DNA of 64,000 nt from a virus. Positions 11,454 through 58,921 of this stretch are shown piece by piece (position 1 is the first letter of the stretch; the number at the start of each line of letters is the position of its first letter). A program made the position numbers and the translations under genes. The notes under the pieces were generated by a model. It had not been told where the DNA came from. It did not search any database and saw nothing but the letters and a program-made list of their open reading frames with translations. The DNA is taken from positions 19,386 through 83,385 of IMG/VR virus record IMGVR_UViG_3300037963_005450, one strand, 5' to 3'.

Positions 11454-11515
11454 AATACTAAATTACTAAAATTTTTTAAGTTTGCTTGTTTTTCTTTTCA
11501 CACTTTTTAAGTTTA

Positions 11516-15844: not shown

Positions 15845-15846
15845 AT

Positions 15847-18800: not shown

Positions 18801-18906
18801 GTGCTCCACCTTCTAATTGCTTTTTAATTTGTAATTGCAATTCCATTGGTGATGGCATATTTGCTTCACCTCCTTCTTGATATTTCATACGTTTTATTGT
18901 GCCCAT
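15847..18906 (-). CDS. Virion-associated protein with two EF-hand-like loops (1019 aa)
   Basis: The first 150 residues are Met/Gln/Glu/Pro-rich helices carrying possible UBA-like repeats (LxxMGxxEEQI-type segments around residues 35-75). Two calcium-loop-like sequences DxDGDGxxDxx(F/Y) occur at residues 225-236 and 847-858. A hydrophobic Gly/Ala stretch near residues 580-610 could touch membrane. The C-terminal third is Asn/Asp/Thr-rich and disordered in look. It heads a transcription unit: a TTTGTATATT promoter-like motif stands only 11 bases before the ATG. Together with the following 1442- and 1157-residue genes it forms a cargo-like set. The actual function is unknown. Confidence 0.58.
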   Translation of the reverse strand: MGTIKRMKYQEGGEANMPSPMELQLQIKKQLEGGAQPEALIAELLQMQISEQDIKVAFESLGMPEDQVIAAIDVAVQQLNAKASEEEMGMMEQPMMPEASPDQMAAQEQMAPMNPNIPQEYGLPDQMMQENPEPASSEDIAQLEAMLPKASTGAFIPPHQRGIGRGGGSLYLPDYGTDQKWETDVLNMPKMPRPLYNNVMMHQNPLANLVTSVADFGRTLFSKKDRDGDGHSDGIFRRDTKEQKSVPGYKSRKKEWRDNKGAYQRHTIDAGLNADGTPRSEADFKENYVFDQTNREVLSKDDVLQRFTDNSSIAFDEETGRYKMYASDNKRDNRRNIRKHDAVDLQEFGQRMKDNPDQAKMLFDYYGQTEKETGIPTGTTLGIDKDGYGTSYAPGTVNPDFYKTAMYENTLKKHGGSLSHGGENLMEHDSMQKDLKKVGPEFLQAFMQVVNQGTPTHTMPDGTVHPGATHEEYLAMQQGLPSYQYRGEFNLNLPKLTDAEKIGLGTGATFGLLSSFTNPSSSISKNIKVKNTAQQMCTDNTCPAGSTDWKDYTNRANMELGIGEDPNRPGYFSSDEFATGNVGKAWGKTLGRTALGAGAGWLTGYGSQWLGHKLAPKVFANPGKLFRQGGGENASNLYEFYEGNLPSIAERADLFKASGLGSGYTGTASENKKLLEYLKRTDNIPLDQDLDEITINAKRNPNTIAPMRPPSIIESSLPEPQLMMSDQSVFSTDNPNSIFYNPTSEQEEEETATETSMIGPTNNNVGPVNNSMLSNTDDDDTDYSNLTTEPGQLTANLLEADKTNLNVDNDPSATFNQVANMGNQNTGDTKNNIPPLQDDDLPISTIDYDGDGVNDLYPKAPMVGPQNQPPADDPEKDLSVDPSVVDSRYGDTAGEKITNWTNRQLDRPGVQKFGKFSEGVVNVADAATDFLRYGKFLQEKNDKSRTQADKIYGMVAATDRGDQDENTGYFIDNKVVQMGGDPFNNLQQMLPPTPTTGEAEVSYDTLLKLIAAGADIEIL

Positions 18907-18917
18907 TATACTATATT

Positions 18918-18927
18918 AATATACAAA
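18918..18927 (-). promoter_or_regulatory. Late promoter-like motif before the cargo-protein unit
   Basis: On the minus strand the sequence reads AGGCAATC, ten bases, then TTTGTATATTA, ending 11 bases before the 1019-residue gene start. The same two-part arrangement is found before the phosphoesterase gene (37080-37106). The short distance to the ATG implies an almost leaderless transcript if this is a -10-like element. Confidence 0.5.
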
Positions 18928-18951
18928 TATTTATGCAGATTGCCTAAATTA

Positions 18952-21900
18952 TTATTCATTACCTTTTTTAATTATGTGCGTCATTATATAATTTGGCACA
19001 TGCATTCCTAATTTCTTAGCATCTTTATAATGCATTCTATTAAGTTTATCATAAACTTTTTCAGCAAAAGTTATATCATCAGTATTATCATATACACCGT
19101 TTATGTAATCTTTATAAACTTGTAATTTATCTGTTTTTTTATTTTGCTTTTTGCTCATTTCTCCACCAACTTTCATGCTAGGAAATGCCAATGCTCCTCC
19201 AACATGTGGGTTACTAGCTTTATTAAATCCGCTCCATTGGTTAAAATCTAATTTTCCATTACTAGCTTGAGGTCTTGCACTAAAACTTCCTACATCATGA
19301 TAACCAAATATAAGTTCTTCAGGTTTTAGTTTATATTTTTTCATTATTTCATTGGCTGTTTTTTTTATCATATTAATTGAACCAGCCATTTCTATTGCCT
19401 CTCTTTGACCATTAGGTCTTTCTATAAAGAAAATAACACCTGTTCCACCAAATCTACCATATGCATTTTTACCACCTCTAGAGTTACTGGTAGGAAATAT
19501 TAAATGTGTTTCATTAGATTTTTTTCCACCTATGGTATAACTTTTACTAGTAGGTATTGATGATACTGTACTTTGAAATCCTTGAGCACTGGTTCTACCA
19601 TCCCAATTTAAATCAGACCATTTGTATTGTCGTAATGGTGAAGCAATAGAAGCATAATCTTTTATTTCATTCTTTTTTAAATACTTTATATTAACTTGAC
19701 CATTTTCTAATCTTTCATATACTGGAAAATAACCATCAGTTACAGTTGATCCTGGTGCTACAGGTTTTCCATTTAATTGGTCAGCAATCATTTTTTTAGC
19801 ATAAGGATGCTTGTATCCATCTGTTAAATCAGAGTCTAATAAAAAATGTGCAATTCCTTTAACATTTGAATATTGAGTGTTATCATCTGATTTACCATAG
19901 TTCTTTATAGGAACATAATTAAAACCATTCTTAGCATCAAAAGAATTTTGATACATCATTAAATTACCTTTACTATCTTTAACAGTTCCTAAATCTTTAT
20001 ATATAGGTTTTATTAAATTTACTTTTTCTAGATTTGGTGATTCTTGAATGTTTGTTTCTCCTGATACTCCATCAACATATAAAGGTGTTTCTCCTTCTTT
20101 TGCATTTAAAGCTAAACGTGCATTAAAAAGATCTACTTTATCCATTAATGGAGATTTTTCTTCTTCAAGATTAATATCAACATCAACTTTTTCTGTACTA
20201 TAAACATCACCATCCATATATTTTACATAACCTCTATGTAGATTATCTATTTTATCATCAATCCAATTCATAGCTATATCCAATGGAGAGTCTTTTTCTT
20301 TTGGTTTTGGCGGTTCTTTTTTATTAGGATCATATGCATAATGATGCTCCCCTAATGTTAAAGTATCATTTATATTAACTACTGTATTATCTCCGGGTGG
20401 CATAAATGATTCAACGGGCATTGTAATTAAATTTACATCAGTAGTTGATGGTTCTGCTTTATATTCATACTGTGTAAAATCTATCTTAGGTAAAAGTTTT
20501 TCTGTTGTTTCTTCTTTTACAATAGGTTTTGGTTGTTCAGTAATTACCGGTTCTGTTGGTGTATTTACTGAAGTGATTTTATTTGGTTTATTTATAACAG
20601 GTTTTTGTTGTACAACTTCTTGTACAACTTTTTCTTTTGTAGATGGTACTGTAACAGGCTGTTTTATTGGTGTTACAGGAGGTGTTACAATTGTTTGTTC
20701 AATTGGTTGTTCAACTGGTGCTATTGTTTCTTCAACAACTGTTTGTTGAATTGGTGTTCCCACTCCTGGAATATTTATTGAAGTGCCTTTAGCAATCATC
20801 ATTGGATTAACTCCGGGATTGGCATCTAATAATTCTTTTAATGTAATTCCAAATTTAGCAGCTATTCTAGGTCCTATTTCACCTTGTGAAACATATACAC
20901 TATCTGTTTTAATTTCATCACCAGTTTGTTTTTTTGGAAGTTCAAATAATTGATCATAATATGTTTCACTAATACTATCATGTTTAGATTTTAAATATTC
21001 TTCTTCCCACTTTTCATTATCTGCTAAAACTATTTTATGAACATAATCTTTAGTTTCTTCTGGTAATGATTCTAACCATTTCATATCATCACTATATATA
21101 TCAACACCTTTTTCTTTTTGGTTATTTAAAAATTCAGACATATTACCTCTTCCCCAATTATAAGCAGCAAATGTTTTTGCTCTTCTTACTATAGGAGATT
21201 GATTGGGTTTATTTATAAAACTGGCATTATATAAATGATCCATATACCATTTTTGTACTTTAGTAGCATCTTCAGGATCAAAAGGATCAACTTCTGTTTC
21301 TCCTGTTGCTTTTTTATAATCTTTAATAACAGCGTCTCCTAATTGAGCTATTCCTTTATAACCTGCTGGAGAAACAGCTTCTGGATCAAATGTAGATTCT
21401 TTATACGCTTGTCTTACCAACATTTCTTGAGGTATAGTATTTTCACGTTGTTCAAACAATTTTTGCATAAGTTTTAATTGTTCTAATTTTGTTGATGTTG
21501 CTGGTGCAGATGGTGCTGCTTTAGCTGCTATTGCAGACATTTTTTTTATAAAATTTCCATTTCCATTTTGAGCTTTTGGTAATGCCCCACCATATTGCAT
21601 TCCTTCATTAGAACCTGAAGAACCTGCTGCTACTCCAAGCCCTCCTGTAGCTACAGCACCTGCAACAACAGGTGTCCTATTTATTAAATCAATTATACCT
21701 TTTTTTCCTTCTGTAGATGGTTGTAAAAAACTTAATATTCTATTTTGTTTACCAGCATCTGATTTCCAAAACTGCATTAATGTCTTTTCATCAATAGGAT
21801 CTTGAAAGTTTTTAATTATTCCATTCTGATATAATTCATTTCTAAGTTCTCTTAACATTGCAAGAGGTTCATGTTGATGTGTAGTTTGATTAATAAAAGT

Positions 21901-24900
21901 AGTTTCATCTGGATATCTTTTTGTAAACTCTGATAATCTTTTATTTGCAAGTTCTTGATGTTCAACCATACTCTGCCATAAATCTTTTGTTTCTTTATCT
22001 CTAAAATAAGACTTAAAACCTTTATCACCCATTCCTTGCATTCTAGCTTCTTCAATATTTTTTGCTGCGGCATTAGCCTCATCAGTAAGATCTTTCAGCT
22101 GTACTTTATACCTATCTTGTGGTAATAAAAGATTTCCTTTATTATTTATATTATAATCCTTTTGAGTATAAGCAAAATTTTCAGCGTCTTTAGTAGACAA
22201 CCAATCATCTTCTTTTTTAAAGTTTCTAAAGAATTCAGAAGCTTCTTCATCAAATTTTGTCATAGGTTTATTTACAGTTTTAGGACTAATCCCCTCTATA
22301 GGTAAACCAGTTTTTGTACTTTTTACAGAATATGTTCTTTGAGGTAAATTCAACCCTCTTTTTTCCATATATCTTTGAATCAAATGACCAATTTCATGAT
22401 CTCCAGTATGAGATGTTATATTTGGAACATAAGCAAATCTTTCAGTATGTTGACCAATACCTAAATTAACTAAATCATCTACACCGGATACATTTCCTAC
22501 TGAACTTCCTGCATATCCTCCTCTTCCTGGTACATTTGTATATTGAACTTCGTTTAAAAGATATTGTATAAAATCATCTGGATCTTTAACTCCTAAATTA
22601 ATTAATTTTTCTTTAGCTGCAGGATTGTTAAAATTTTCTATTAAAGGCATTATATGATCATCAACATTTTCTAAAGGTTGTTCTAAATTTTTATAGGGTA
22701 GTGTAGTTTGATCTTTAAATTGTTCTCTTACTTTAGGATCTTTACTAGCTTTACCAGTATTAACTTTTATATTATGTTCAGATATTAATTCATTTTGTTT
22801 AGCTATTTGTTCATTTACTTCAGTAAGGCTTTGGTTATATTTTTCATTACCATAAAACGTAGATGGTTGTGTATCTACTTTTTGAGGCTTTTTTGGTATA
22901 TAAGTACCAGGCCAAAATTCAGTATCAACTCCTGTATTATCTGGAATGTTTGCCCAATCTGTATCATCTGCTTGATTTAATGTTGTTCGTGTCTCAACTA
23001 CTTCATCTGTTTCCTTTATAATATTAGGTTTTGTAGAACTTGTTTTTGATGATTTAACTGGTTTTACAATAATATCATTAAAGTGTCCTGTGTTATCTCT
23101 ACCAATAACTTTAAGGTTTGGCATTCCAAGTAATTCTTTCTCACCTAAAAGCTTTTCTGTAGTCATGAAAAAAGGTTTCTCTTTAGTTCCAACATTAGTA
23201 GTATTTATTAAATCTTGTAAGTTTTGGTTTTCTTTAATAGGAACTTTAAAAAAATCTTCTCCCATGTTTTTTGCATACCTTTCAGGTATTACTATTCTTT
23301 GAGTACCTGCTGGATTAAGTGGTGCACCATCTTTCCAAGCTCCTGTACTCCAAGATCTTGGAGAATCCCAAGTTACTTTAGAACCATATTCAGTAGGGAA
23401 GTTTTTTTGACTTCCATAATAACCTTGTATTCTAGATATAGGTGTATTTATAGATTGATCTCCTAAGTTGTATTTAGCAACAATTTCATCTAGCTTTAAT
23501 CTATCAGCACCTTTTATATCAGCTGGACTATGTTGCCAAAGTCTTACAATTTCAGCTTCCTCATCAGTTAAATTAGCACCTTTTAAAGCATCATAGTTTT
23601 TAGAACCTTGATAAGCAGCACTAATATTTCCTTCATTTAATCCAGATTTCCATGCAATAGGTAACGGAGAGTTTCCAGTAGCAACTGCATTATATCCACT
23701 TTTAATGGTTGGAATATATTGTTTTGCTGCTGCATATCCACCAGCACCTATACCAAACAAATCTAATCCTATAGACCCTGCATTACCCCAAGTTGGATTA
23801 TTAGCAAACTCTTGAACATCTCCTGGTAAATGTGTAGCTCCGTGATAAGCACCATAAGCATCCATAAGACCCCCAACAGTTACATCCCCAACAACTTTAG
23901 TTCCCATTACTTCACTAGCTGCAGGCATTACATAAGGTAATGCAGATGCAACCAATGGTAAAGCTGCAACAGTCATACCTGGTTTAACTATAGCATCAGT
24001 TATTTGTTGCCCATAATCATCTAAGTAATCACCTCCTCTAACACCCTCTATTATAGCTTGTCTTATGAGAGGATTGCTTGATCTATTTGCTGTTGAGCCA
24101 AATGTAGTACTATAAGGATTATGATGATCCCATAATGTTTCTTTTTGATTGTCACTTATAGTCTCCCATGCAGGATACCTTTTTTTCATTTCCTCCTCAT
24201 GCCTTAATCTCCATGAAGTTTCATCCCTTTGTCTTTGTGTTTCATCTGAAACAGTTTCTATTTCAAAATCAGGAAGATTACCTCCTATAAATATAGGTTC
24301 TAATTCACCTTCTGGTCCTGTAACATTTTCATCAAAGACATAATGTTTTAGTTGCCCTGCTTCATTTAATGCTCTAAATTCTTCCACCGTATAAGGTTTG
24401 CCAGTATTAGGATTTATACCTTTATCAGCCATCCAAACAGGAGCAGCCTCTTGCAACTTTTTTTCATAAACATAATTCTCTCTGTCTTGAGCTGCTTGAT
24501 CATTTTTATTTTTTTGATCCATAGCATAATTATAACGTAACCATTGAGAATTGCTATATGTTATAGGATTTCCACTTTTATCTAAAGGATTGGCTTGATC
24601 ATCATAACTTGCAACTTGAGCATCAAACTCTGCCTCCATTTCTGCAGGAGACTTATCAAATGAAAAGTTTTGTGTACCTGTTTCTACTCTAGTGGGTTCA
24701 TTAGAATTTTCCCCTTTAAATTGAAATATTGGAAGAATATCCCCACCGTCTTTTTTAATGCCTTGATTATATTGCATATTATCTTGCACATAACCAGCAT
24801 CACCTTGAAGCATAGCTTGTATTTGATTAAGTCTTTCTTTTTGAGATTGATTAAGACCGCTTCTAGCTTCTAAAGATTGTAAATCATTTTTTTCTCTATT

Positions 24901-25779
24901 TAACTCAACTATGTCTTTTTGTAAAAGCTTTTTATATTCTATTTGTTCTTGCTCTACTTGTTCTATAGTAGGTTGTGGTTCAATAATATCATTCGTATTT
25001 ATTGTAAAATTGTTTTCTTCATTATTTGTTGGATAACCCAAATCATGAATCATACTTCTTACTACTATATTTTGAGGAGGTAATCCTTTTAATAATTCTT
25101 CAATATTATGTTCAGCAAAATATTCAGGATTATTTGTTTGTGCCCAAGATATATATTGTTGATATTCATCATCAGTCATAGAATGTCGTGGTAATTTTCT
25201 ATGATAATTTTCTATTGTTGGTGATTTAGCTCCTTCCCAATCTGATTCTCCCCAACTTTTATCTACTATTAAATTTGACCCTGTTTTAAATTTTTTAGAA
25301 ATAGTTGCTTCACCAGGTTTAACTAGATCTTTATATTGTTCAAACCCTAAAAATTCAGGAGAATTCATCCATTCTGTACTATCAGTATAATCATCTACTA
25401 CTGACCATCTTAATTCATAAGCGTCTTTAGCAGCATCTATTTCTTTATTAAGTGATTCAATATTTTTATTCTCTTTTCTTATTTTTTTATACTCTTTGTA
25501 CCGTGGATCAAAAATGCTATTTATTTCTCCCTTAGATTGATATGAGGGTAGTATTGGAGATTCATCTACATAGTCTGCATTAGGAAAATAATAATCTTTA
25601 CCGGGATTCATTAATGTTGGTGGTCCTACATTTGGTTGAGCCCATACAGGATATGGTACACCTTTCATTGTAATATCATTACCCATTATACGTGTATTTT
25701 GACCAGGATATTTCCATTGACCTTGCTGATCTTTAACCAAATAATTTGGTCCTCCTTTTAACCCTATTCCTTTTCCCAT
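18952..25779 (-). CDS. Polyvalent virion protein: ART-like, zincin, lytic transglycosylase, LysM (2275 aa)
   Basis: Recognisable parts run in order. An N-terminal segment has a GVPYPV motif near residue 40. An ADP-ribosyltransferase-like region has R783, S811-T812-G813 and E880-K-E882 followed by LL, matching the R, STS and ExE pattern of arginine-type ARTs. A zincin motif HEIGH lies at 1128-1132. A lytic transglycosylase (SLT) domain has catalytic-type E1461 in KESTFDPEA, followed by GYKGIAQL. A LysM repeat spans about 1630-1672, followed by Pro/Thr/Val-rich linkers. A C-terminal domain of unknown type ends in YKDAKKLGMHVPNYIM. The transglycosylase plus LysM suits local peptidoglycan cutting during DNA entry; the ART and zincin could act on host proteins once injected. 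The stop of the muzzle-like gene overlaps its ATG by one base. Transglycosylase and LysM are firm calls; ART and zincin are motif-level inferences. Confidence 0.78.
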   Translation of the reverse strand: MGKGIGLKGGPNYLVKDQQGQWKYPGQNTRIMGNDITMKGVPYPVWAQPNVGPPTLMNPGKDYYFPNADYVDESPILPSYQSKGEINSIFDPRYKEYKKIRKENKNIESLNKEIDAAKDAYELRWSVVDDYTDSTEWMNSPEFLGFEQYKDLVKPGEATISKKFKTGSNLIVDKSWGESDWEGAKSPTIENYHRKLPRHSMTDDEYQQYISWAQTNNPEYFAEHNIEELLKGLPPQNIVVRSMIHDLGYPTNNEENNFTINTNDIIEPQPTIEQVEQEQIEYKKLLQKDIVELNREKNDLQSLEARSGLNQSQKERLNQIQAMLQGDAGYVQDNMQYNQGIKKDGGDILPIFQFKGENSNEPTRVETGTQNFSFDKSPAEMEAEFDAQVASYDDQANPLDKSGNPITYSNSQWLRYNYAMDQKNKNDQAAQDRENYVYEKKLQEAAPVWMADKGINPNTGKPYTVEEFRALNEAGQLKHYVFDENVTGPEGELEPIFIGGNLPDFEIETVSDETQRQRDETSWRLRHEEEMKKRYPAWETISDNQKETLWDHHNPYSTTFGSTANRSSNPLIRQAIIEGVRGGDYLDDYGQQITDAIVKPGMTVAALPLVASALPYVMPAASEVMGTKVVGDVTVGGLMDAYGAYHGATHLPGDVQEFANNPTWGNAGSIGLDLFGIGAGGYAAAKQYIPTIKSGYNAVATGNSPLPIAWKSGLNEGNISAAYQGSKNYDALKGANLTDEEAEIVRLWQHSPADIKGADRLKLDEIVAKYNLGDQSINTPISRIQGYYGSQKNFPTEYGSKVTWDSPRSWSTGAWKDGAPLNPAGTQRIVIPERYAKNMGEDFFKVPIKENQNLQDLINTTNVGTKEKPFFMTTEKLLGEKELLGMPNLKVIGRDNTGHFNDIIVKPVKSSKTSSTKPNIIKETDEVVETRTTLNQADDTDWANIPDNTGVDTEFWPGTYIPKKPQKVDTQPSTFYGNEKYNQSLTEVNEQIAKQNELISEHNIKVNTGKASKDPKVREQFKDQTTLPYKNLEQPLENVDDHIMPLIENFNNPAAKEKLINLGVKDPDDFIQYLLNEVQYTNVPGRGGYAGSSVGNVSGVDDLVNLGIGQHTERFAYVPNITSHTGDHEIGHLIQRYMEKRGLNLPQRTYSVKSTKTGLPIEGISPKTVNKPMTKFDEEASEFFRNFKKEDDWLSTKDAENFAYTQKDYNINNKGNLLLPQDRYKVQLKDLTDEANAAAKNIEEARMQGMGDKGFKSYFRDKETKDLWQSMVEHQELANKRLSEFTKRYPDETTFINQTTHQHEPLAMLRELRNELYQNGIIKNFQDPIDEKTLMQFWKSDAGKQNRILSFLQPSTEGKKGIIDLINRTPVVAGAVATGGLGVAAGSSGSNEGMQYGGALPKAQNGNGNFIKKMSAIAAKAAPSAPATSTKLEQLKLMQKLFEQRENTIPQEMLVRQAYKESTFDPEAVSPAGYKGIAQLGDAVIKDYKKATGETEVDPFDPEDATKVQKWYMDHLYNASFINKPNQSPIVRRAKTFAAYNWGRGNMSEFLNNQKEKGVDIYSDDMKWLESLPEETKDYVHKIVLADNEKWEEEYLKSKHDSISETYYDQLFELPKKQTGDEIKTDSVYVSQGEIGPRIAAKFGITLKELLDANPGVNPMMIAKGTSINIPGVGTPIQQTVVEETIAPVEQPIEQTIVTPPVTPIKQPVTVPSTKEKVVQEVVQQKPVINKPNKITSVNTPTEPVITEQPKPIVKEETTEKLLPKIDFTQYEYKAEPSTTDVNLITMPVESFMPPGDNTVVNINDTLTLGEHHYAYDPNKKEPPKPKEKDSPLDIAMNWIDDKIDNLHRGYVKYMDGDVYSTEKVDVDINLEEEKSPLMDKVDLFNARLALNAKEGETPLYVDGVSGETNIQESPNLEKVNLIKPIYKDLGTVKDSKGNLMMYQNSFDAKNGFNYVPIKNYGKSDDNTQYSNVKGIAHFLLDSDLTDGYKHPYAKKMIADQLNGKPVAPGSTVTDGYFPVYERLENGQVNIKYLKKNEIKDYASIASPLRQYKWSDLNWDGRTSAQGFQSTVSSIPTSKSYTIGGKKSNETHLIFPTSNSRGGKNAYGRFGGTGVIFFIERPNGQREAIEMAGSINMIKKTANEIMKKYKLKPEELIFGYHDVGSFSARPQASNGKLDFNQWSGFNKASNPHVGGALAFPSMKVGGEMSKKQNKKTDKLQVYKDYINGVYDNTDDITFAEKVYDKLNRMHYKDAKKLGMHVPNYIMTHIIKKGNE

Positions 25780-28700
25780 TATCTAAAAGATTGATTAAGT
25801 TTGGTATTAGCTACTTTTAATAACATTTTTCTATTTCTTTCACCTTCTGTACTACGTCTTAAAATAAGTTTATTGTAATAATGTCTAAACTTTTTACGTT
25901 GTTCAGCAGGTTTATTATAATCTAAATTTAAAAAATTTAAATCTCTTATATACCCATTTAATTGAGTATTCCATATTTGTTGTTCAGCATTAGTAAATTC
26001 ACCTCTATCATTAGTAATATCCCAGAACATATTAAATCTATATTTTTGTTCTACTTTATTAAAAATAATATCTATATCAGCTGGATTAAATATTGGGTAA
26101 TCTAATGCTGTAATTGGATCTAATTGTGGTTGAAGATTTAGTTTTAACAATCCAGATACTTGTTCACTATTATGTATAATAGCTTCATCAAAATTCCAAA
26201 ATAAATCATGATATCTATCATCTCCACATCCATTTCTTAAATCTCCTTTATAGACAAAACTTTCTAATTGATACTCTACACTTCTTAAAGTATTAACTAC
26301 TTGACCGCTATTTTCTACAAATTCTATTTCCCAAGGATAACTTACGCCATAATATCCAGCAAAATCATCACATCTATCATTATGCCTCCAAATACTTCCT
26401 GTAGATTTAGGTGGGAAATAACTTTCAAAATCATCTTTTGTATATGTACACATCAAAGGTGATGGGTTAACATATGTTGGATCTCCATATAAATAAACGT
26501 CATCACATGATCCTGATGGAGTTCCTGGATCATTACCTCCAAATGGATCTGGTGGACAATCACATTCTATTTTTCTACAAACTAATGGTATTTCTCCTGG
26601 ACAAGGACCAGTTGGTTCAGTAAAATATCCTGTAGCTGGATTTTCCCAAACTTGAGTGTACCCTGAAGGACAATCACAACCCGGTCTAGTTTGCACTTCC
26701 CCTTCAAATGCTATATCATAAAAATATGTAGCTGGTTGAGAAAAAGTAAAGAATCCTATTTTACAATTATTTTGAAATTTTAATAATTCATTTCCAGTTG
26801 CAAATGTTGGTGCGTCTGTCCATGTTGCAACATTTGCTAAATCTATTGATATTACGGGAGTTGGGTTATATTGATTAGTTCCTCCTGGAGCTACTGCAGC
26901 ATCAGTTTGTGGCCCCATTGTTTCTGTTGTAAATATATCTATTAAAGTTCCGGTTTTTTCTACCTTTACTCTTACAGAGCCTTGATCATCATAGGATCCA
27001 CCTTGAGTTTGAGCACCACCATTCCATGGAGAAGGAACTCTTTTAACTAATACAGGTCTTTGTCCGCCAGGATTTGCAGGATCAAAGAAAGCATAAGCAC
27101 TATTTCCATAATTATAATATATACTTATAGTTCCTTTACCATTAGAATCTTGGGTAGCATTAGAAAACATTAAAAGTAAATTATGTGTTTCATTTGTTGG
27201 TCCATATATACCATCAACATCTTTAACAGCTCCTAAAACAACACCTATAAAATCATTATCACTATTACCACTTCTAAGCGTTACTTCATGAGTATAATTA
27301 CCAAATTCACATTTACTCCAATATCCATTTACAAGACCACTATTAATTGGCATTCTAACTTTTTTAGGAAATGCTGCATTTTTAATGCTTGCTAATATTA
27401 CATTTCCTTGTGAATCAATAGTATAATCATTACCATCTAATGGTACTGTATTCCATGTTTGATTTGTAGTTAAATATTCTGTTGATGTTGGATTTCCAAC
27501 ATTCCCATAATTTTCTCTTGGATCAAATGTTGTCCATTGCCATGCGTTACCAGAACCCGTTCCTCTAACATTTATACAAATAATATATTTATTTATTGCA
27601 GAATTATACCACCAATAATCTTGATTTGATTGAGCTGCATTTTGAGGTGCACCATCAGCTGTTGTAACATTTTCACCTTCTTGCATAGGAACATTAAAAG
27701 TTCCTAAATTATATGTACTTGCAGGATCAAAATATGTTCCTGGTGCAGCAGAGGGTATCCCAGTAGTTTGATCTACATCACTCCAAACAACAGGCCCACT
27801 ACCTGAAGGCTGTCTTCTTCCTCCAAATGCTGTTATACACCACCTATCCCAATTTGCTGTTAAATCATCTATATCATCATCTTTAGTGAATATTAAATCT
27901 CCTACAGGACAATCATCTACTATTGTACCAGTAGCTGGAACTTCATCTACTGTAGTTATTGCTAATTTTTCTTCTTCTATTGTTGTACCTCTTTCACACA
28001 TTCCTGTAGCAGGGTTGTATGTATATCCTTCATCACATTGTATTTCTAAATCTTGTGATTTTGTTGTTAAAAAATGATTAATGCTTGGTAAGCATAATTC
28101 AGGATGCCAATCATGAAAAGAAATCCATGCTTTAACTTTAGGATCATAACTAACTGTCCATGAACTATCTGTAAAATAAATAGGATCACCTAATGAAATA
28201 TTTATTCCACGGGGACTTATAATTGGATCAATTACATCTAAAAATTCACATAACCATTGACCAGCAGAATTTTGAATTAATGTTTCTCCCTCATTACACT
28301 CATATTGATTATCTCCTATTAATGTAGGAATAGAATATGTTCTTTTTTCACACATTCCTGTTTGACTATTATATGAATAGCCATCAGGACAAGTTTGAAC
28401 TCCGGGTTGACCACTATATGAAGTAAGATTTAATTGAAATCCTTCATCATCATCATATAATATATGACCGCTAAATTCTTCTACAACTGCATAATCTCTT
28501 TTACAGAAATAAACAATACCGTCTGTTGGATCATATATTGTTTGACAACCCACACCTATTACTGGATTATCTACAATAGGTTTTCCTTCTATACTAGGAA
28601 CTTCTTTTAATAATTGACATGGTAGATATTTATTAAACCACCATTTCATACCTGCATCAGAAATAGGTACTAAACCTTGACCTGACGTTTGAAATATTTT

Positions 28701-50868: not shown

Positions 50869-53646
50869 TTATTTTTTATCTTTTTTCTTCTTTTTTGCTT
50901 CAAGTTTTTCCGCAGCAATATCATATTTATTTTTATTTTCTCTAGCTATTTCTAATTTGGTATCTGCAATTTCACGTTGAGCATTTGTTCTATCTTTCTC
51001 TACTTCAAGTTTTTGTTTTTCAATAGAATTTTTCATTACAGATTCTTCTCGTTTAAAGTTCATTTGCTCCCTATATTGAGAAGTTTCCCTAATTTCTTTC
51101 ATTGCATCTTGATAATCTGATACTTGATTTTGATTAACATCTACTTGTGCACCATATCCAGCAGCTCTGATTTCTGCAACAGTAATATCTTTAGCTCTTT
51201 CTTTTTCATTTTCTTGTTGCTCAAATTGAAGTTTCATTTTCTCTTCTTGTTGTTTAGCAGCAATTTGATCTTGTTGCATTTTTTCTTGCTGTTGCATTTC
51301 CTCTTGTCTTTGCTGTTGTTGTCTAATTTCTGCGTCTTTAAGTATATCAGATACTTCAGCTATAGAATCCGCTTTTATTATATTACCAAGATCATATATG
51401 CTAGCTCCACTTGTATTGTTAGTTAATGCTAATTGTTTTAATTCATCTAGAATAGCTCTATGATTAGTACGTGTTGTACAGAAAATGTTAAAATCTCTAA
51501 GTAATAAATCAGTGCCGTTTATTTGGAAATTAACTTTTTCAGCTTCAGAATTTATATAAGATAATCTAATGCTTGGATTAGTACTATAATAAAATTGTGC
51601 AAGATCTGTTCTCATTTGATGAACTCTTGGCATTAAATGATCTGAATGTTGTACAAAATATTGTTCTGTTTGAGCATATGATTGATTCATAGCTTGAATT
51701 ACACCTGTAGCAGTTTGTTGTGCTATTGGTTGACCCATTCTTTGTGGATTTACTCCTATAGCATCAAAAGCTTGTTGTTTAAAATAATTTGCCAATTGAA
51801 TTCTAGACATCAATCTATTAGTTTGTTCTAGATTAAGAGTTTGATAATGATTAAAGTTTGTTGCGTTTTCTGTATTGGTAATAGATGTATCTAAAGGAAG
51901 CATGCTAAAATCTTTCATTGCTGTATAAGCTTTTGCATAATTTGCTTTTCCCCAATCTTCACCCATTGAATGTCTTGGTAGTGCGTTTTGATCAAACATA
52001 ATCACAGTACCTAATTCATCTACAAGAATATCAGCAATTTGATTATTAACCATATTAAAGCCTATTTGATAAGCTTTCATTAAATCAACTAAAGATGTTG
52101 ATTTAGTATTTCTATCTGAAAATACTCTTCCTTCTATTGGAAGTTTACATCCATAAAGTGTACTATCTCCTTTAAATTGAAAAGGAATTCTTCCAGGTTT
52201 AGTTCTATTAATTCCTAAATAGATAGGATTAATATTATCTGACATATTTGATTTCCAAAATGCTGGAAGATTTGGTCCTAATTTTACACCGCCCCATACT
52301 TCATTAATCCAAATCCATTCAATATGTTCACCTTCTAATAAGTTATCTTTACTTTTATTTTTAAATAAAGTAGTATCATAAACCGGTTTTTCAGTAACCT
52401 TATATGATTCATCAATTACATCTTGAATTATTTCACCATCTGCTTTAATATGTGTTAAATGACCTACTTTACGTTGTGTTTTCCAATATACTGTTGTAAC
52501 ACGCATTAACTCACCTTCACCCCAATGCATTAAATCATCACCTTCATTTAAAATCCAACTTACAATATCTCCATCATTTCCTGCACCTCCAGGACCATAA
52601 TTACTTACATATTGTCTATAATTTAAACTTGGACTGTTTGTATTCCATTGATGAGATCTAGTAGGATCATAATATGAACCATCATTTTGATATCCATTAA
52701 TTTGATACATTGCAGATTTAGCAGGATAAATATTCTGTAAAGACTTTAATTGTTTTTCATTCATTAAATAACCGTATCTATCTATTACATCAGATACTGT
52801 CATTAAATCTATTTTACCAGCAAAATTTGAATTAGATATATATCTTACATCTGGAGATTTTTGATAAAATGTTAATACTGGATTCCATAATTCTACATCA
52901 TAATCATCTTCCAACATACGGAAATGCCAAAATTCACGGTCTGCAATTAACATATCACGGAAAGCTCTTTCTTCAAGTTCTTTCATTTTAAATCTTTCTT
53001 CATCAACTATTAATTGATGAGAAGCCCATTCTTCTACTAAACTTCTATAATCTTTAGAAAAGAAATCTTCTATTTCAGGAAGTGATTTAATATTTTCAGG
53101 ACTTAATTGTTGCTGTGCTTCTTCAGATTGAGGATCCATTCCGGCCTCTATCATTTGTGCTAATAATTTTTGTTCTGCATCAGCTAATAAATTTTCTTCA
53201 ATTAACAACCTTTTTTGTTCAAGCATTTCATTGTATGATAAATCATCAACTGCTCTAAATTGAACTTTATTAAATCTTTTACAAAATTCTCCTACTAATA
53301 CATTAATTACATTTGGAATAATTGGATAAAATTTTAATTCAAGAGCTGTTTCATCTTCTTTTGTTAAAACATCCATTAAATCTCCATACTCATTGGCTTC
53401 TTCAACTATGTAATCACTTTTAGTAATAATACCTTTTGCAAGTTTATAATTTTTTAATAAGTGTCTTGCATTTTCTCTTAAAAATTCTAAACCTTGTAAT
53501 TCCAACCAATCTAAATTCCATGCAGCCCAGTCATCATCCTTTTTATTCATTGGTAAAAATTGGATGGGTTGAGTTAAGCTGGCCGTAGTTGGTCCATCTT
53601 CAGCCTTAGCACCGGCTTTTAATTGCATTGCATTTAATACTTTCAT
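50869..53646 (-). CDS. Portal protein, crAss-like type (925 aa)
   Basis: The protein begins with an AWNLDWLELQGLEFLRENARHLLKNYKLA region (read in parts) and a FYPIIPNVINVLVGEFCKRF segment that I recall from crAss-like portals. A long wing and stem domain of about 200-750 follows with many conserved-looking aromatic residues. Residues of about 780-925 form a Gln/Lys/Glu-rich coiled coil, expected for the barrel helix of large portals. Portals make the 12-fold ring through which TerL pumps DNA. It is directly downstream of TerL with a 96-base gap containing a weak TATATTATAG promoter-like stretch. Length is in the range of large Bacteroidota podovirus portals. Confidence 0.85.
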   Translation of the reverse strand: MKVLNAMQLKAGAKAEDGPTTASLTQPIQFLPMNKKDDDWAAWNLDWLELQGLEFLRENARHLLKNYKLAKGIITKSDYIVEEANEYGDLMDVLTKEDETALELKFYPIIPNVINVLVGEFCKRFNKVQFRAVDDLSYNEMLEQKRLLIEENLLADAEQKLLAQMIEAGMDPQSEEAQQQLSPENIKSLPEIEDFFSKDYRSLVEEWASHQLIVDEERFKMKELEERAFRDMLIADREFWHFRMLEDDYDVELWNPVLTFYQKSPDVRYISNSNFAGKIDLMTVSDVIDRYGYLMNEKQLKSLQNIYPAKSAMYQINGYQNDGSYYDPTRSHQWNTNSPSLNYRQYVSNYGPGGAGNDGDIVSWILNEGDDLMHWGEGELMRVTTVYWKTQRKVGHLTHIKADGEIIQDVIDESYKVTEKPVYDTTLFKNKSKDNLLEGEHIEWIWINEVWGGVKLGPNLPAFWKSNMSDNINPIYLGINRTKPGRIPFQFKGDSTLYGCKLPIEGRVFSDRNTKSTSLVDLMKAYQIGFNMVNNQIADILVDELGTVIMFDQNALPRHSMGEDWGKANYAKAYTAMKDFSMLPLDTSITNTENATNFNHYQTLNLEQTNRLMSRIQLANYFKQQAFDAIGVNPQRMGQPIAQQTATGVIQAMNQSYAQTEQYFVQHSDHLMPRVHQMRTDLAQFYYSTNPSIRLSYINSEAEKVNFQINGTDLLLRDFNIFCTTRTNHRAILDELKQLALTNNTSGASIYDLGNIIKADSIAEVSDILKDAEIRQQQQRQEEMQQQEKMQQDQIAAKQQEEKMKLQFEQQENEKERAKDITVAEIRAAGYGAQVDVNQNQVSDYQDAMKEIRETSQYREQMNFKREESVMKNSIEKQKLEVEKDRTNAQREIADTKLEIARENKNKYDIAAEKLEAKKKKKDKK

Positions 53647-53742: not shown

Positions 53743-55932
53743 TCATTTAAAATTTTTAAAACCAGATCTTACTTTTTTACCATAAGATCCTTGAGTCCTT
53801 TTACGTCCTAAATTACTAAACGGACTATACTTTAATTTATACAAATTTTCTGAATTATGCAAGGAATTTGACTGTTCAATTTCTTTACGTTTTACATAAC
53901 CTCTATTAGATTGTTGCACTTTTGCAAAAGCAATTAATGCTGAAAAAGTTACTAACCTATCTACGTTTAAACCTGGATAGTATGACATCATTTCTTTTAT
54001 AAGCATTGGATCTGGTATTCTTTCAACACCAAAAGTTTGATTTATTACATTTCCATTTTCATCAGTTTCTTCATCAATCACTTCTCTTAAATATTCAATT
54101 GCGTATGATATTAAATGATTTTTAAAAAGAGTTCCTGTATTTTTCCAACCATATTCTTGATATACCGTTTTATTTGATCCAAGATCTTTTAAAAATAATA
54201 TTTGATTTTTAGGAACTAAATATTTTTGTTTTTTTCTAGAAATCATATATTGTATAAAAAGAGAAATGTTATTCTCTACTATAGTCCAAGCATTATACCA
54301 TTCAATTATTAATTCTAATCTTTCATGGGTTTTATTAATATCATCAAATCTTCCGCACCATGCAGCAACTATTTTATCTTTTTCAATAAAAGTTTCTAAA
54401 CCATCAGGTGTTTCTCTTGTAATTTCTATTGGATTTTTATAAATAAAAATTGAACATAAAGAATCTGATGTAGTTGTTTTACCTTCAGAAACGGGGTCAA
54501 TAGATCCATAATATGTACCAAAACCAGGATTTTTAATTGGTCTTTCCCAAACAACTAAACAACCACTTTTGTCTTGCATTTTTTTATCTACTGGAAATTG
54601 TGATATTGGTAACTTATTAGTTTTTTTTCCAATAATTCCTGTTTCATCTCTCTCTAATTCTATAAGTTCATACCCATACTCTTTATCTTCAATTCTTTTT
54701 AATTGTTTAGATGTAATACCTTGTGGAAATACAGATTCTTTTCTATATGCAAATCCTTCTGCAATATTAGTTGGTTTCTGAGATATTCTTAATTGATATT
54801 GTTCTGGGTTAAGTTTTGCTTTCCATTCTTCTCTTTCTGCCATAATTGCTTCTAAAGCTTCTTCTACCTTAGAATTACCATAATCATCTATATACGGTGG
54901 CATTGACCATTGTTCTGGAATAAATAAACCTGATAACCCTATTGTTCCATCTTTATCTAAAAGGTTTGTTTGAACTGGATAAATATCATTATTAACTGGA
55001 TTTAAAATCATATCTTTTAACGGATTACATTGATCTAAATCACCAACAGATCCTGCTGCTATAAACATACCTGTAGTCATCATACCAGAAGACATTGCAG
55101 GACGTAAATACTCATATGTATCCATCATCTTTGGAGCAATACCAGCTTCTTCATGGAAAAAGTAAGTTGTTGGTCCACCAACACCTGTTGTTGCATTTTT
55201 TTCAAATGATGCCCCTTGTATTTTAGATTTTAAACCTTTACTTGTTTTTCTGTTACCAACTTTAACTTCTATTTGTTGTTGCCAAAGTAAAACTTTTTCT
55301 GGATTGCTTGGTCTATACCAAGCGGTATGCTCATTTAAAAAGTCTCTGTACTCTTCTAAAAATTTCCAAGAGCCTTTATCATTAATGTAATCTTTAAGAC
55401 TTGCTCCTATTTTACATACAGATCCTTCTTCAAACCAATAGGTATTTATAATTTTACCCATATGAAAATAAGAAGAGGCTATCTGACGTTTTTTAAATAT
55501 AGCTGAGTGTTTATTATGCAGTTCAGCTAATAACTCATATAAAGCCATATGATATTGAGCATCTCTTACTTTAGCAAAACCATATGCTTTTTCTTCTTTA
55601 TCATAAATAGGTAAAAAATTTAACCACATATAATAATCTCTAGTTAAATACCATGATTTACCAGAATCATTATAAATAACACCTTGTCTGCATTTAATTT
55701 TTTCTTTATCCCAATATTTAATAAAATCTTTTGATCTAAAAGGGGCATTGCAATAAAAACCTTGGTCATTAAATGTTCTAGCTTCTTTATTAAATAAAAA
55801 TGCTGTTTTATTAAAACCATATTCACCAGGCTCTTTAAATATTGACAACAAATAACTAATAAATTCTTTTTCATCAAAGAATTCAGTAGTTGTCCATTCA
55901 CCATTATTATATGTAGGAATTTGTTTATACAT
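53743..55932 (-). CDS. Terminase large subunit (729 aa)
   Basis: The ATPase part shows a Walker B-like strand TYFFHEEAG at 256-264. The Walker A position (about 147-160, KKRQIASSYFHMGK) lacks the canonical GKT/S, as in other divergent TerL groups where Arg/Ser-rich loops replace it. The nuclease part has the expected acidic residues: D479 in GSIDPVSEG, E553 in IVENN and D658 in LNVDRL. The C-terminus is basic (RSGFKNFK). It would cut and package concatemeric DNA into the head through the portal. It overlaps the co-chaperonin gene by 8 bases at its start. No small subunit is evident nearby. Confidence 0.9.
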   Translation of the reverse strand: MYKQIPTYNNGEWTTTEFFDEKEFISYLLSIFKEPGEYGFNKTAFLFNKEARTFNDQGFYCNAPFRSKDFIKYWDKEKIKCRQGVIYNDSGKSWYLTRDYYMWLNFLPIYDKEEKAYGFAKVRDAQYHMALYELLAELHNKHSAIFKKRQIASSYFHMGKIINTYWFEEGSVCKIGASLKDYINDKGSWKFLEEYRDFLNEHTAWYRPSNPEKVLLWQQQIEVKVGNRKTSKGLKSKIQGASFEKNATTGVGGPTTYFFHEEAGIAPKMMDTYEYLRPAMSSGMMTTGMFIAAGSVGDLDQCNPLKDMILNPVNNDIYPVQTNLLDKDGTIGLSGLFIPEQWSMPPYIDDYGNSKVEEALEAIMAEREEWKAKLNPEQYQLRISQKPTNIAEGFAYRKESVFPQGITSKQLKRIEDKEYGYELIELERDETGIIGKKTNKLPISQFPVDKKMQDKSGCLVVWERPIKNPGFGTYYGSIDPVSEGKTTTSDSLCSIFIYKNPIEITRETPDGLETFIEKDKIVAAWCGRFDDINKTHERLELIIEWYNAWTIVENNISLFIQYMISRKKQKYLVPKNQILFLKDLGSNKTVYQEYGWKNTGTLFKNHLISYAIEYLREVIDEETDENGNVINQTFGVERIPDPMLIKEMMSYYPGLNVDRLVTFSALIAFAKVQQSNRGYVKRKEIEQSNSLHNSENLYKLKYSPFSNLGRKRTQGSYGKKVRSGFKNFK

Positions 55933-56200
55933 CTACAATAATGGCTAATATATCTTGAATATTTATTAAAAGATGTTCTTCATTATCATGCATCATAACA
56001 ACCGGAACTGCATGATCTGCAAATTGAATATGATCTCCAGGTTTCATTGTATTAACTAAATCACCAACGGCAATAATAACACCTTTATTTTCTTTTTCTT
56101 GATTTCCAGGCATTAAGATGTTTGTACTACCATAATATTGTGGAGTTTCATCTTGCTTTATTAATACTTTATTTCCAACGGGAATGATTTTAGTACTCAT
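55925..56200 (-). CDS. GroES-like co-chaperonin (91 aa)
   Basis: The full length matches the GroES family: KIIPVGNKVLIKQDE at the start, a mobile-loop region with Tyr/Gly/Ser around residues 20-32, then NKGVIIAVGD, MKPGDHIQF and a terminal LAIIVDV strand. GroES proteins cap the host GroEL chamber; T4 gp31 shows that phages encode their own to fold large capsid proteins. No GroEL gene is in the window, so the host partner must be used. It overlaps TerL and the glycosyltransferase-like gene by 8 and 4 bases, so it is coupled to late expression. Confidence 0.88.
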   Translation of the reverse strand: MSTKIIPVGNKVLIKQDETPQYYGSTNILMPGNQEKENKGVIIAVGDLVNTMKPGDHIQFADHAVPVVMMHDNEEHLLINIQDILAIIVDV

Positions 56201-57660
56201 AGTTTTTGTTTTAAATAATTATATGTTATGTAACTGTTATTGGGTTCTGCTTTTCTAAAAAAGTATGCTCCTTTTTTTCTTTTTGCTTTTAAACTAGTTT
56301 CACTTAAAGAATTTGAAACACATCTGTGATTTCTATGAATTTTAAATTCTAGTATTTTTTTATTTATAATGTTATCTTTATCTAACTTTGATAATAAGTC
56401 ATAATAATAACTTTCATCAGGAACAGTTTTTGGCATGTCATAGGTGTCTTCTTTATCTCTATTTTCTAACACTAATTTAACATGATCTCTAGTTAATAAA
56501 AAGAATTGTGAACATTCCACACGGTTTTCTTTTTTTTGTATAATGCTTAACCAACTTTTTTTAGTATTTATAGTATCATTATAAATTTTATTAAAATCAT
56601 ATAAAGGAACGGTATCTGCAGATGTTAAAATAAATATTTTATTTGTTTCATTTTTATATGCTTCTTCTAACATATTGTTTGTTGCTTTAACTAAACTTAT
56701 ATCTCCCCATTTTGTAGGTATATGTTTTTTAATATGATTATCAATTAAAATTTTAGTTTTACACTTATCTTTATGTTTAATATGCGTATAAAAAGTACAT
56801 CTGTCTTTACCATCTTCTAAAAAATCAACCCAAACGTTTGGATAATTAAATGTTTCATATCCTAACATTAGTATTGCAATTTTATCTTTTTTATTAGATT
56901 TAAAATTTACTGTTTCATCAAATGCTTTACTATCCATTATATGATTGCCTTCTTCTTTACTTACAAATGATTTATTACATACCATAGCCCTTCTAGTTAT
57001 CTTATATCTCTTAGCAACTTCATACCAAATTTGTTCTCTTATAGCCCAGCTTTCATCTCCTTTTGTTAATTCTCTAACTCCCCCTTTAACTCTATCATGA
57101 GGGTTAATACATATAACATCATCTACTAATGCAATATTTTCATAACCGTTTGCCCATGCTGCTAATCTATCTATTCCCCAACCAACTAATTTAGGATCAA
57201 AAACATCCATTAATTTTCTTAAAGCATTTTTTGAAAATAAAGGAACATTAACTTCAACATAGTTTGTATATCTCATAAACCATTTAGGATTATTTACAGT
57301 TCTAGGATGAGATATTTTACAAGTTGGTTCAAATGTTGGTCCGCAAATACTAAGATTAAATTTTTTTGATATCATAAACATTTTATTAATATCCTCTGTA
57401 GATATTATTATGTCATCATCCAAAATAAATATTCTCTCATATTGAGATAAATCTTTGCTATTATATAAGTCATAAAAGTTTTGAAATTTAAAACCTTTTC
57501 TTTTAGTAATGTAATCTGAATGTTTTGAATATAGTTTATATTTTTTTTCATCATCACCATAATATGTTACCCAAAGATCATAATCTTTGCTATTACCACA
57601 CCAATGTTTGTAAAAATTAGTGTTGTCTCCCGCAGATGTAAAAACTAAATTATCTTTCAT
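56197..57660 (-). CDS. Two-domain glycosyltransferase-like protein (487 aa)
   Basis: Residues 1-245 look like a DUF707-type putative glycosyltransferase: RIFILDDDI with the acidic triad at 81-83, then GWGID at 160-164 and an INPHDRVKGG segment. Residues 258-460 resemble the core-2/I-branching N-acetylglucosaminyltransferase group (GT14): W318-GDISLVKATNNML, then NKIFILTSADTVPLYDF at 340-356, an ECSQFFLLTRDH acceptor segment, and VPDESYY at 413-419. The two halves are joined by a short linker. This would transfer sugars to modified phage DNA, a virion protein or host glycan; which one is not shown. It sits between a small helical gene and groES, both overlapping by four bases. Confidence 0.72.
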   Translation of the reverse strand: MKDNLVFTSAGDNTNFYKHWCGNSKDYDLWVTYYGDDEKKYKLYSKHSDYITKRKGFKFQNFYDLYNSKDLSQYERIFILDDDIIISTEDINKMFMISKKFNLSICGPTFEPTCKISHPRTVNNPKWFMRYTNYVEVNVPLFSKNALRKLMDVFDPKLVGWGIDRLAAWANGYENIALVDDVICINPHDRVKGGVRELTKGDESWAIREQIWYEVAKRYKITRRAMVCNKSFVSKEEGNHIMDSKAFDETVNFKSNKKDKIAILMLGYETFNYPNVWVDFLEDGKDRCTFYTHIKHKDKCKTKILIDNHIKKHIPTKWGDISLVKATNNMLEEAYKNETNKIFILTSADTVPLYDFNKIYNDTINTKKSWLSIIQKKENRVECSQFFLLTRDHVKLVLENRDKEDTYDMPKTVPDESYYYDLLSKLDKDNIINKKILEFKIHRNHRCVSNSLSETSLKAKRKKGAYFFRKAEPNNSYITYNYLKQKL

Positions 57661-57887
57661 ACTTCTATACTAAAATGTCTTTTGAGACATTCTATTTTAT
57701 CTTCTGCATCAATTAATAATTGCAATGCTTTTTCAGCATCATCAAAGAAATCATTTGCTGTATGATCACCAATACCTACAGCTTGATTTTCTAAAAGATC
57801 TAAAGCCATTAATGCTTTTTCTTTATCTGCTATTGCTTTTGCATATAATGCATTCATTACTCTTGATTTTTTAAATTGTCCTTTCAT
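57657..57887 (-). CDS. Small helical protein (76 aa)
   Basis: It is predominantly helical, with an Ala/Leu/Lys/Glu composition and the segment YAKAIADKEKALMALDLLE. No recognised family. It overlaps the glycosyltransferase-like gene by four bases and starts 15 bases after the preceding stop. A chaperone or assembly role is possible but unsupported. Confidence 0.5.
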   Translation of the reverse strand: MKGQFKKSRVMNALYAKAIADKEKALMALDLLENQAVGIGDHTANDFFDDAEKALQLLIDAEDKIECLKRHFSIEV

Positions 57888-57902: not shown

Positions 57903-58418
57903 TTATTGATCATAAGCTAATCCTTGTCCTCCACGTACTGAAGTAGATTGCTCATCTTTTAAATCTTTGTATGCTCCTTTAAATGATTGCCTAATGGCAT
58001 CAAAATCTTTTGCTACTGCACGTATTTGAGATATATTACCATCTCTACCATCTGTTATTTGTGTATTAGCCATATATGTAGCCATATTATCTAAAGCTTT
58101 TTTAATACCCATATATGCTCTAAATGTAGGTGTTTCATACATTTGAGAACATCTATCTAATGCATATCTTATTTCACTATCTTCTGTTGACTCTTCTAAA
58201 CCAACTTCATCTATAATTATATCCTCTTTATCATGTTCTGGTAAATTAAAAAAAGGATTCATTTCTGGATCAGGGCATGTCATATAAAATAAATATTGAT
58301 ATACACTCATGTGTGTATCTGGATATTTTTCTTTTATTGCTTTTAAAAACTCTAATGTATAACAATGTTCTGTTAACACTACTTTTTCATTTTGTATGTC
58401 AAATAATTTAACTATCAT
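57903..58418 (-). CDS. Conserved crAss-like protein near TerL (171 aa)
   Basis: Recognisable stretches are IVKLFDIQNEKVVLTEHCYTL (read in parts), VYQYLFYMTCPDPEMNPFF near 40-58, and a C-terminal FDAIRQSFKGAYKDLKDEQ and SVRGGQGLAYDQ. I recall a near-identical pattern from an uncharacterised protein encoded next to TerL in crAss-like phages. This is one of the stronger hints of lineage in the window. It may take part in packaging, given the location; function is unknown. It overlaps the methyltransferase gene by four bases. Confidence 0.62.
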   Translation of the reverse strand: MIVKLFDIQNEKVVLTEHCYTLEFLKAIKEKYPDTHMSVYQYLFYMTCPDPEMNPFFNLPEHDKEDIIIDEVGLEESTEDSEIRYALDRCSQMYETPTFRAYMGIKKALDNMATYMANTQITDGRDGNISQIRAVAKDFDAIRQSFKGAYKDLKDEQSTSVRGGQGLAYDQ

Positions 58419-58921
58419 GACTGATTATAATAAGCTATTAATCTTTCTGCCCCATCATCTTTTACAATAAAAGATTCATTGGGTCTTTTTCTAGTCCATT
58501 TTTTTAGTTTAGAATGATCTACAGGATCTTGTTTATGATATTTACACCAACCTTTTCTCCATTTATAAGGAACAGAAATAATAACATGATTACTTAAAGT
58601 AAATAATTTGTCAGTAAAATTTTGAATTGTAGTATTATCTAGATGTTCTAATACTTGCATGCATATTGCAACATCATATTTTTCTTTTACTTTCCAGGTT
58701 AAAAAATCTTCATTTATAAAATTAATATTTTTTACAGGTTTAACATCTCTTATATCTAAACATGTCTTTTTTTCAATAGGTGTATCTTTTACAAAAAATC
58801 CATTATATCCACCTATATCAATTATAGATTTAGCTTTGTTATCCATAGCCAATCTTTCTATAAGCTCATTGCATTTTTTATAATAATTGTAATCTTTACG
58901 TTTTTCTATATATTCTATCAT
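58415..58921 (-). CDS. Class I SAM-dependent methyltransferase (168 aa)
   Basis: Motif I is SIIDIGGYNGFF at 32-43, the post-I acidic residue D56 lies in CLDIRD, motif II-like ED is at 71-72, and VAICMQVLEHLDN at 84-96 plus VIISVPYKW complete a Rossmann methyltransferase. The EHL motif is common in small-molecule or sugar methyltransferases. The target recognition domain is lacking, so substrate is unknown. The position close to a glycosyltransferase-like gene makes a shared glycan-modification pathway possible. It overlaps both neighbours by four bases. Confidence 0.82.
   Translation of the reverse strand: MIEYIEKRKDYNYYKKCNELIERLAMDNKAKSIIDIGGYNGFFVKDTPIEKKTCLDIRDVKPVKNINFINEDFLTWKVKEKYDVAICMQVLEHLDNTTIQNFTDKLFTLSNHVIISVPYKWRKGWCKYHKQDPVDHSKLKKWTRKRPNESFIVKDDGAERLIAYYNQS

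Follow-up and report, generated by a model that had tools for sequence, protein, structure and literature searches.

The window analysed here, a stretch of 64,000 bases, corresponds to bases 19386-83385 of the 115,963-base IMG/VR virus record IMGVR_UViG_3300037963_005450. The genes and domains at the locus are as follows.

50869-53646: portal protein (PHROG head/packaging, phrog_6547)
53743-55932, minus strand: TerL, terminase large subunit, crAss-like (phrog_6681, E=1.4e-60)
55925-56200, minus strand: GroES-like co-chaperonin, Cpn10 (PF00166, E=3.6e-11; phrog_3188)
56197-57660, minus strand: tandem glycosyltransferase, DUF707 and GT14 fusion, 487 aa (Pfam, AF2, homologous fusions in IMG/VR)
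56197-56889, minus strand: its C-terminal GT14/Branch domain, residues ~258-487 (Pfam; PDE E416, R469-K470; Foldseek match to C2GnT-L)
56971-57660, minus strand: its N-terminal GT-A-like domain, residues ~1-230, DUF707/PF05212 (Pfam; D81-x-D83, GWGxD D164)
57657-57887, minus strand: 76-aa protein (phrog_1811), accessory in relatives
57903-58418, minus strand: 171-aa conserved protein, bordering a variable slot and kept in nearly all TerL-neighbour loci
58415-58921: methyltransferase, 168 aa
58918-59193, minus strand: 91-aa hypervariable gene

The fusion gene runs from 57660 to 56197 on the minus strand, with the plus strand at the same place full of stops. The coordinates given by an earlier, sequence-only reading were exact, and the neighbours it had described (TerL, GroES and methyltransferase) were all found by Pfam and PHROG searches, along with the portal gene. 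The fusion gene shares 4 bases with each neighbour, its ATG with the stop of the upstream 76-aa gene and its stop with the start of GroES, and the overlap between GroES and TerL is 8 bases; because of these overlaps the four genes look translationally coupled. From gene order, we infer that the fusion gene is expressed late. The TerL and portal families (phrog_6681 and phrog_6547) place the window phage among the crAss-like phages, with a TerL about 25% identical to Crassvirales TerL records, and IMG/VR searches with TerL and portal returned at least 599 and at least 600 matching stretches, respectively, indicating a large aquatic crAss-like group. The late region of the record encodes several proteins of more than 1000 aa, as in crAss-like phages, and includes a single 5462-aa reading frame at 10966-27354 of the record (its end at window positions 2-7969).

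Close by, the 91-aa gene is only 49% identical to its counterpart in IMG/VR contig L158, with a dN/dS of about 1.15, against 90-94% identity for most neighbours. Its homologues are flanked by Exo and the 171-aa gene (e.g. L133, 4763), and 43 other loci encode proteins related to it at the N terminus, 79-116 aa long except for one of 592 aa, suggesting a family of variable virion decoration proteins or fibre anchors.

The sequence-only reading had proposed that the protein joins two different sugar-transferase halves, one DUF707-like and one GT14-like, and this is now backed by sequence, motifs and predicted fold. Searched whole, the protein matched PF02485 Branch (E=1.7e-14, 54.4 bits, cut-off 23.4) and PF05212 DUF707 (E=1e-6, 28.7 bits, cut-off 24.1), both above the curated Pfam thresholds; searched separately, the N-terminal half returned DUF707 (E=1.2e-7, 31.7 bits) and the C-terminal half Branch (E=1.7e-15). 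The DUF707 match spans residues 71-213, and the best stretch of Branch/GT14 spans 262-372. Direct comparison of the two profiles gave no relation (probability 0.5%), which excludes both a single family for the two halves and a sequence-detectable tandem duplication. The 487-aa reading frame is confirmed as a genuine DUF707-GT14 fusion. Relative to L158, both halves are under purifying selection (dN/dS about 0.23 for the N-terminal and 0.43 for the C-terminal half; 0.06-0.15 for most packaging-region neighbours), and the fusion is found in more than ten viral contigs in IMG/VR; for these two reasons the frame is not a product of chance. The protein has no hydrophobic segments, consistent with a soluble enzyme. 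It matched no PHROG family, and neither the protein nor the two profiles retrieved a glycosyltransferase from PDB sequences; the interferon and flavodoxin matches to the N-terminal profile were rejected as chance.

An AF2 model built from 33 viral homologues reached a pLDDT of 84.7 and a pTM of 0.64, leaving the relative orientation of the domains uncertain (an earlier run with seven sequences, pLDDT 46.7, was discarded). This confident model predicts two GT-A-like domains in one chain. The best PDB matches in Foldseek were the two-GT-domain proteins COLGALT1, LH3, K4 chondroitin polymerase (K4CP) and LARGE1, together with the single-domain GT14 enzyme C2GnT-L (3otk, 2gak), with low whole-chain TM-scores (0.2-0.3) that support the domain types and not their arrangement. 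In the N-terminal half, D81, D83, N133, E136, D164 and D180 are invariant in the 33 viral sequences. D81-x-D83 follows the modelled strand 76-79 and D164 of GWGxD sits at a helix start, so placed that D81, D83 and D164 look like donor-metal and catalytic-base positions. In the C-terminal half, the motif VPDE occupies residues 413-416, with D415-E416 (as PDE or ADE) invariant in the seven C-terminal halves aligned; R469-K470, near the C terminus, is likewise invariant in the aligned GT14 halves, among which no DxD is conserved. In C2GnT1, Glu320 of SPDE acts as the base and Arg378/Lys401 substitute for the metal (PMC4202792), and GT14 enzymes no longer have a DxD and work without a metal (PMC7185993). 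By motif, E416 and R469-K470 may be likened to Glu320 and Arg378/Lys401 of C2GnT1. The acidic donor-binding residues are kept as a DxD in the N-terminal half, and the C-terminal half does without one as GT14 enzymes do; with the DxD and GWGxD aspartates conserved in one half and the PDE glutamate and Arg-Lys pair in the other, both halves look catalytically active.

The fusion occurs on two phage backbones: the aquatic crAss-like group of the window phage, where it takes the same slot ahead of TerL, and a second type of phage, where it lies within glycosyltransferase clusters. A DUF707 profile scan of viral contigs gave 54 loci, including fusions in the crAss-like group (L161, L177-L180) and in the second group (L181-L185), together with numerous stand-alone copies roughly 230 aa long. 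Some fusion homologues score just below the DUF707 cut-off; in L182 and L184, Pfam placed DUF707 at or just below it and GT14 at E-values down to 2e-22, and the GT14 half of L177 scored 100 bits and covered profile positions 1-237 of 250. Every contig returned by a GT14 profile scan of viral contigs also carries the DUF707 half. Trees of the two halves share their main split, {window, L158, L159, L004} with {L161, L005} against {L177, L178} with {L181-L184}, and this congruence argues for one old fusion inherited as a unit. The DUF707-like domain is also joined to other C-terminal halves at L162 (8001-9755), L186 (7986-9713) and L211/L212, where the second half has no Pfam match, making these modular viral glycosyltransferases; the L162 gene adjoins a GT25-GT2 fusion. 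In L204, a stand-alone DUF707-like gene (6917-7765) lies beside a divergent thymidylate synthase homologue (8001-8699), with gp23 and prohead protease upstream, and L206 has the same layout; these genes are a candidate DNA-hypermodification pair.

Within the crAss-like group, the fusion gene is an accessory insert. It is present in 6 of 101 deduplicated loci spanning the 171-aa gene to TerL and absent from the other 95, where the median gap is 350 bases and GroES is found in 94. Five of the six fusion-bearing loci came from glycosyltransferase searches, so that the true frequency is lower, and among the TerL and portal matches listed the fusion appears only in L004 and the truncated loci L003 and L005. 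Judging from the variety of genes found just ahead of TerL, this site seems to be a hotspot for insertions. The fusion does not strictly co-occur with the methyltransferase: in L161, L177 and L178, which have the fusion, no homologue of the 168-aa enzyme was recognised in place. Individual loci vary in other ways: in L177, L178 and L179 the fusion gene occupies the place of GroES, with no GroES upstream of TerL; the slot before GroES and TerL holds a 4HBT thioesterase in L016 (3939-4340); proteins of about 210 aa without an assigned role fill the slot before TerL in L112 and L150; and the fusion-bearing relative L161 has consecutive genes (1027-2906) for a methyltransferase, a SET-domain protein and a TupA-like ATP-grasp protein.

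None of the 50,697 phage records in INPHARED encodes the fusion. The sole match, MT836403, contains a transposase, an ABC transporter and Glf- and GalE-like genes and, read from its open reading frames, looks like a bacterial contig. The fusion protein, used as a single query in weak pattern-based scans of IMG/VR and GTDB contigs, returned nothing, as did an alignment scan of GTDB contigs, itself too weak to establish that bacteria lack the fusion.

The neighbourhoods of relatives bear on what the enzyme might modify. A single-domain DUF707 relative on a Paraburkholderia plasmid adjoins glf, a flippase and a GT2 gene, another on a Rhizobium plasmid lies amid glycosyltransferase genes, and DUF707 occurs in Acinetobacter lipooligosaccharide outer-core loci (PMC4172580, PMC10327509). 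In the second phage group, the fusion is accompanied by GT4-like, Gly_transf_sug, phosphoheptose isomerase, GtrB-like, aminotransferase, formyltransferase-like and sulfotransferase genes, a neighbourhood that looks like a cell-surface sugar-coat cluster, and the stand-alone DUF707 copy of L187 is near DegT, RmlD, GT2 and GDP-mannose dehydratase-like genes. Strongly hydrophobic segments were absent from five such glycan clusters and from the window protein. Glycosyltransferases of pelagimyophages have been interpreted as modifying the O-chain and so limiting coinfection (PMC7029224).

It is plausible, at about an even chance, that the protein is a soluble two-domain glycosyltransferase that adds two sugars sequentially to a host surface polysaccharide and so alters a receptor. 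In this model, the enzyme would be produced from the packaging operon during infection; the N-terminal GT-A-like DUF707 domain would bind a nucleotide-sugar via a metal held by the DxD, and the C-terminal GT14 domain would hold the donor phosphate by Arg/Lys in place of a metal, with the PDE glutamate as the base, giving an inverted (beta) branch linkage. A single growing glycan would receive two different sugars in turn. The acceptor would probably be a precursor of a surface polysaccharide, whether O-antigen, capsule or exopolysaccharide, and the altered receptor could exclude competing phages (superinfection exclusion). That the fusion persists on two unrelated phage backbones predicts a defined product made in two steps. 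The sequence-only reading had left virion protein, DNA and host glycan side by side as targets; the bacterial and viral gene neighbourhoods, together with the pelagimyophage interpretation, favour surface polysaccharide as the most likely acceptor, with virion protein next, and the DNA part of that proposal has become unlikely. Several points weigh against a surface target. Among the window-phage proteins scanned, the fusion is the sole glycosyltransferase recognised, and with no sugar-nucleotide genes observed the phage would rely entirely on host precursors. The packaging-operon position suits a virion target equally, the accessory slot may only mark an insert-tolerant site, and a late surface change would be of little use to a strictly lytic phage unless infection is slow or superinfection common.

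Glycosylation of the progeny virions, on a capsid, decoration or tail protein, is the next reading, possible but on balance unlikely. It draws on the place of the gene in an overlapping operon shared with the co-chaperonin, terminase and portal genes, on the nearby hypervariable 91-aa gene with its 592-aa relative, as might fit a decoration protein, and on the capsid and tail-tube glycans made by glycosyltransferases of some mycobacteriophages, a precedent cited in PMC12619734. However, 95 of the 101 relatives with the same packaging operon do without the fusion gene, the 91-aa family occurs without it, the fusion of the second phage group lies within a polysaccharide-type cluster, and bacterial DUF707 relatives are found in surface polysaccharide loci. 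A more specific version, in which the GT-A tandem assembles a branched glycan of two sugars on a virion protein such as the 91-aa product, giving a self-glycosylated crAss-like capsid, seems distinctly doubtful.

A separate question is whether only one half is catalytic, the other serving as a GT-A-shaped accessory or acceptor-binding domain. Lysyl hydroxylase LH3 has an inert GT-A accessory domain of this kind, and both LH3 and COLGALT1 rank high among the Foldseek matches; the C-terminal half also evolves faster than the N-terminal half (0.43 versus 0.23), and other phages carry the DUF707 domain alone or with different partners. Every fusion homologue aligned nevertheless keeps the active-site signature residues in each half, and purifying selection acts on both, so we regard a single catalytic half as rather improbable. 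That the two domains glycosylate hydroxymethylated bases in phage DNA is very improbable, because in spite of the DUF707-thymidylate synthase pairing in the T4-like, gp23-bearing L204 and the DNA-hypermodifying viral glycosyltransferases cited in PMC12619734, no thymidylate synthase/hydroxymethylase (PF00303) was found in the 116-kb record of the window, no homologue in nine other fusion-bearing phage records, mostly fragments, and no other base-modification family among the Pfam matches of the early region.

Surface-glycan remodelling by a two-domain enzyme remains our preferred explanation, and the comparison with known systems shows where such an enzyme would stand. The sequence-only reading knew of no phage protein with this pair, and that holds as tested: in the literature searched and in PHROGs we found no description of the DUF707-GT14 pair or of DUF707 in phages, and INPHARED agrees. 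The protein differs from the Gtr seroconversion cassette (membrane GtrC with GtrA/GtrB) in having no hydrophobic segment, a GtrB-like gene being seen only in the second phage group, and from DNA-glycosylating phage enzymes in the absence of a companion PF00303 hydroxymethylase from the 116-kb record. With pelagimyophage and cyanophage LPS/glycosyltransferase clusters, the second phage group shares a similar multi-gene glycan cluster, whereas the window fusion lies in a packaging operon with no other glycosyltransferase recognised nearby. Bacterial DUF707 members, of the family also known from plants and from bacterial polysaccharide loci, share the D-x-D and GWGxD at 22-26% identity; those examined are single-domain proteins, whereas the phage protein is fused to GT14.

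The C-terminal half resembles the core-2/I-branching beta-1,6-N-acetylglucosaminyltransferases of GT14 in fold, PDE glutamate, basic C-terminal residues and absence of a DxD but, compared with C2GnT-L-type enzymes, has no N-terminal membrane anchor and sits behind a DUF707 domain in a phage-encoded protein. GT14 as a family transfers GlcNAc, Xyl or GlcA with inversion. Viral GT14 domains also occur in giant viruses (Aureococcus anophagefferens virus, Megaviridae Core-2/I-branching; Foldseek, BFVD), whose hosts, in contrast, are eukaryotic. Like K4 chondroitin polymerase (2z86), LARGE1 and COLGALT1, the phage protein would have two GT-A domains, making two-sugar action plausible, although the families in both halves are different, identity is about 10% and the domain arrangement differs. 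Phage glycosyltransferases and tandem GT-A enzymes are thus already known kinds, to which this fusion adds an undescribed domain pair. Viral DUF707 emerges as a modular glycosyltransferase, occurring singly, joined to GT14 or joined to other halves, and a single gene now allows a test of whether aquatic crAss-like phages alter the surface glycans of their hosts or their own virions.
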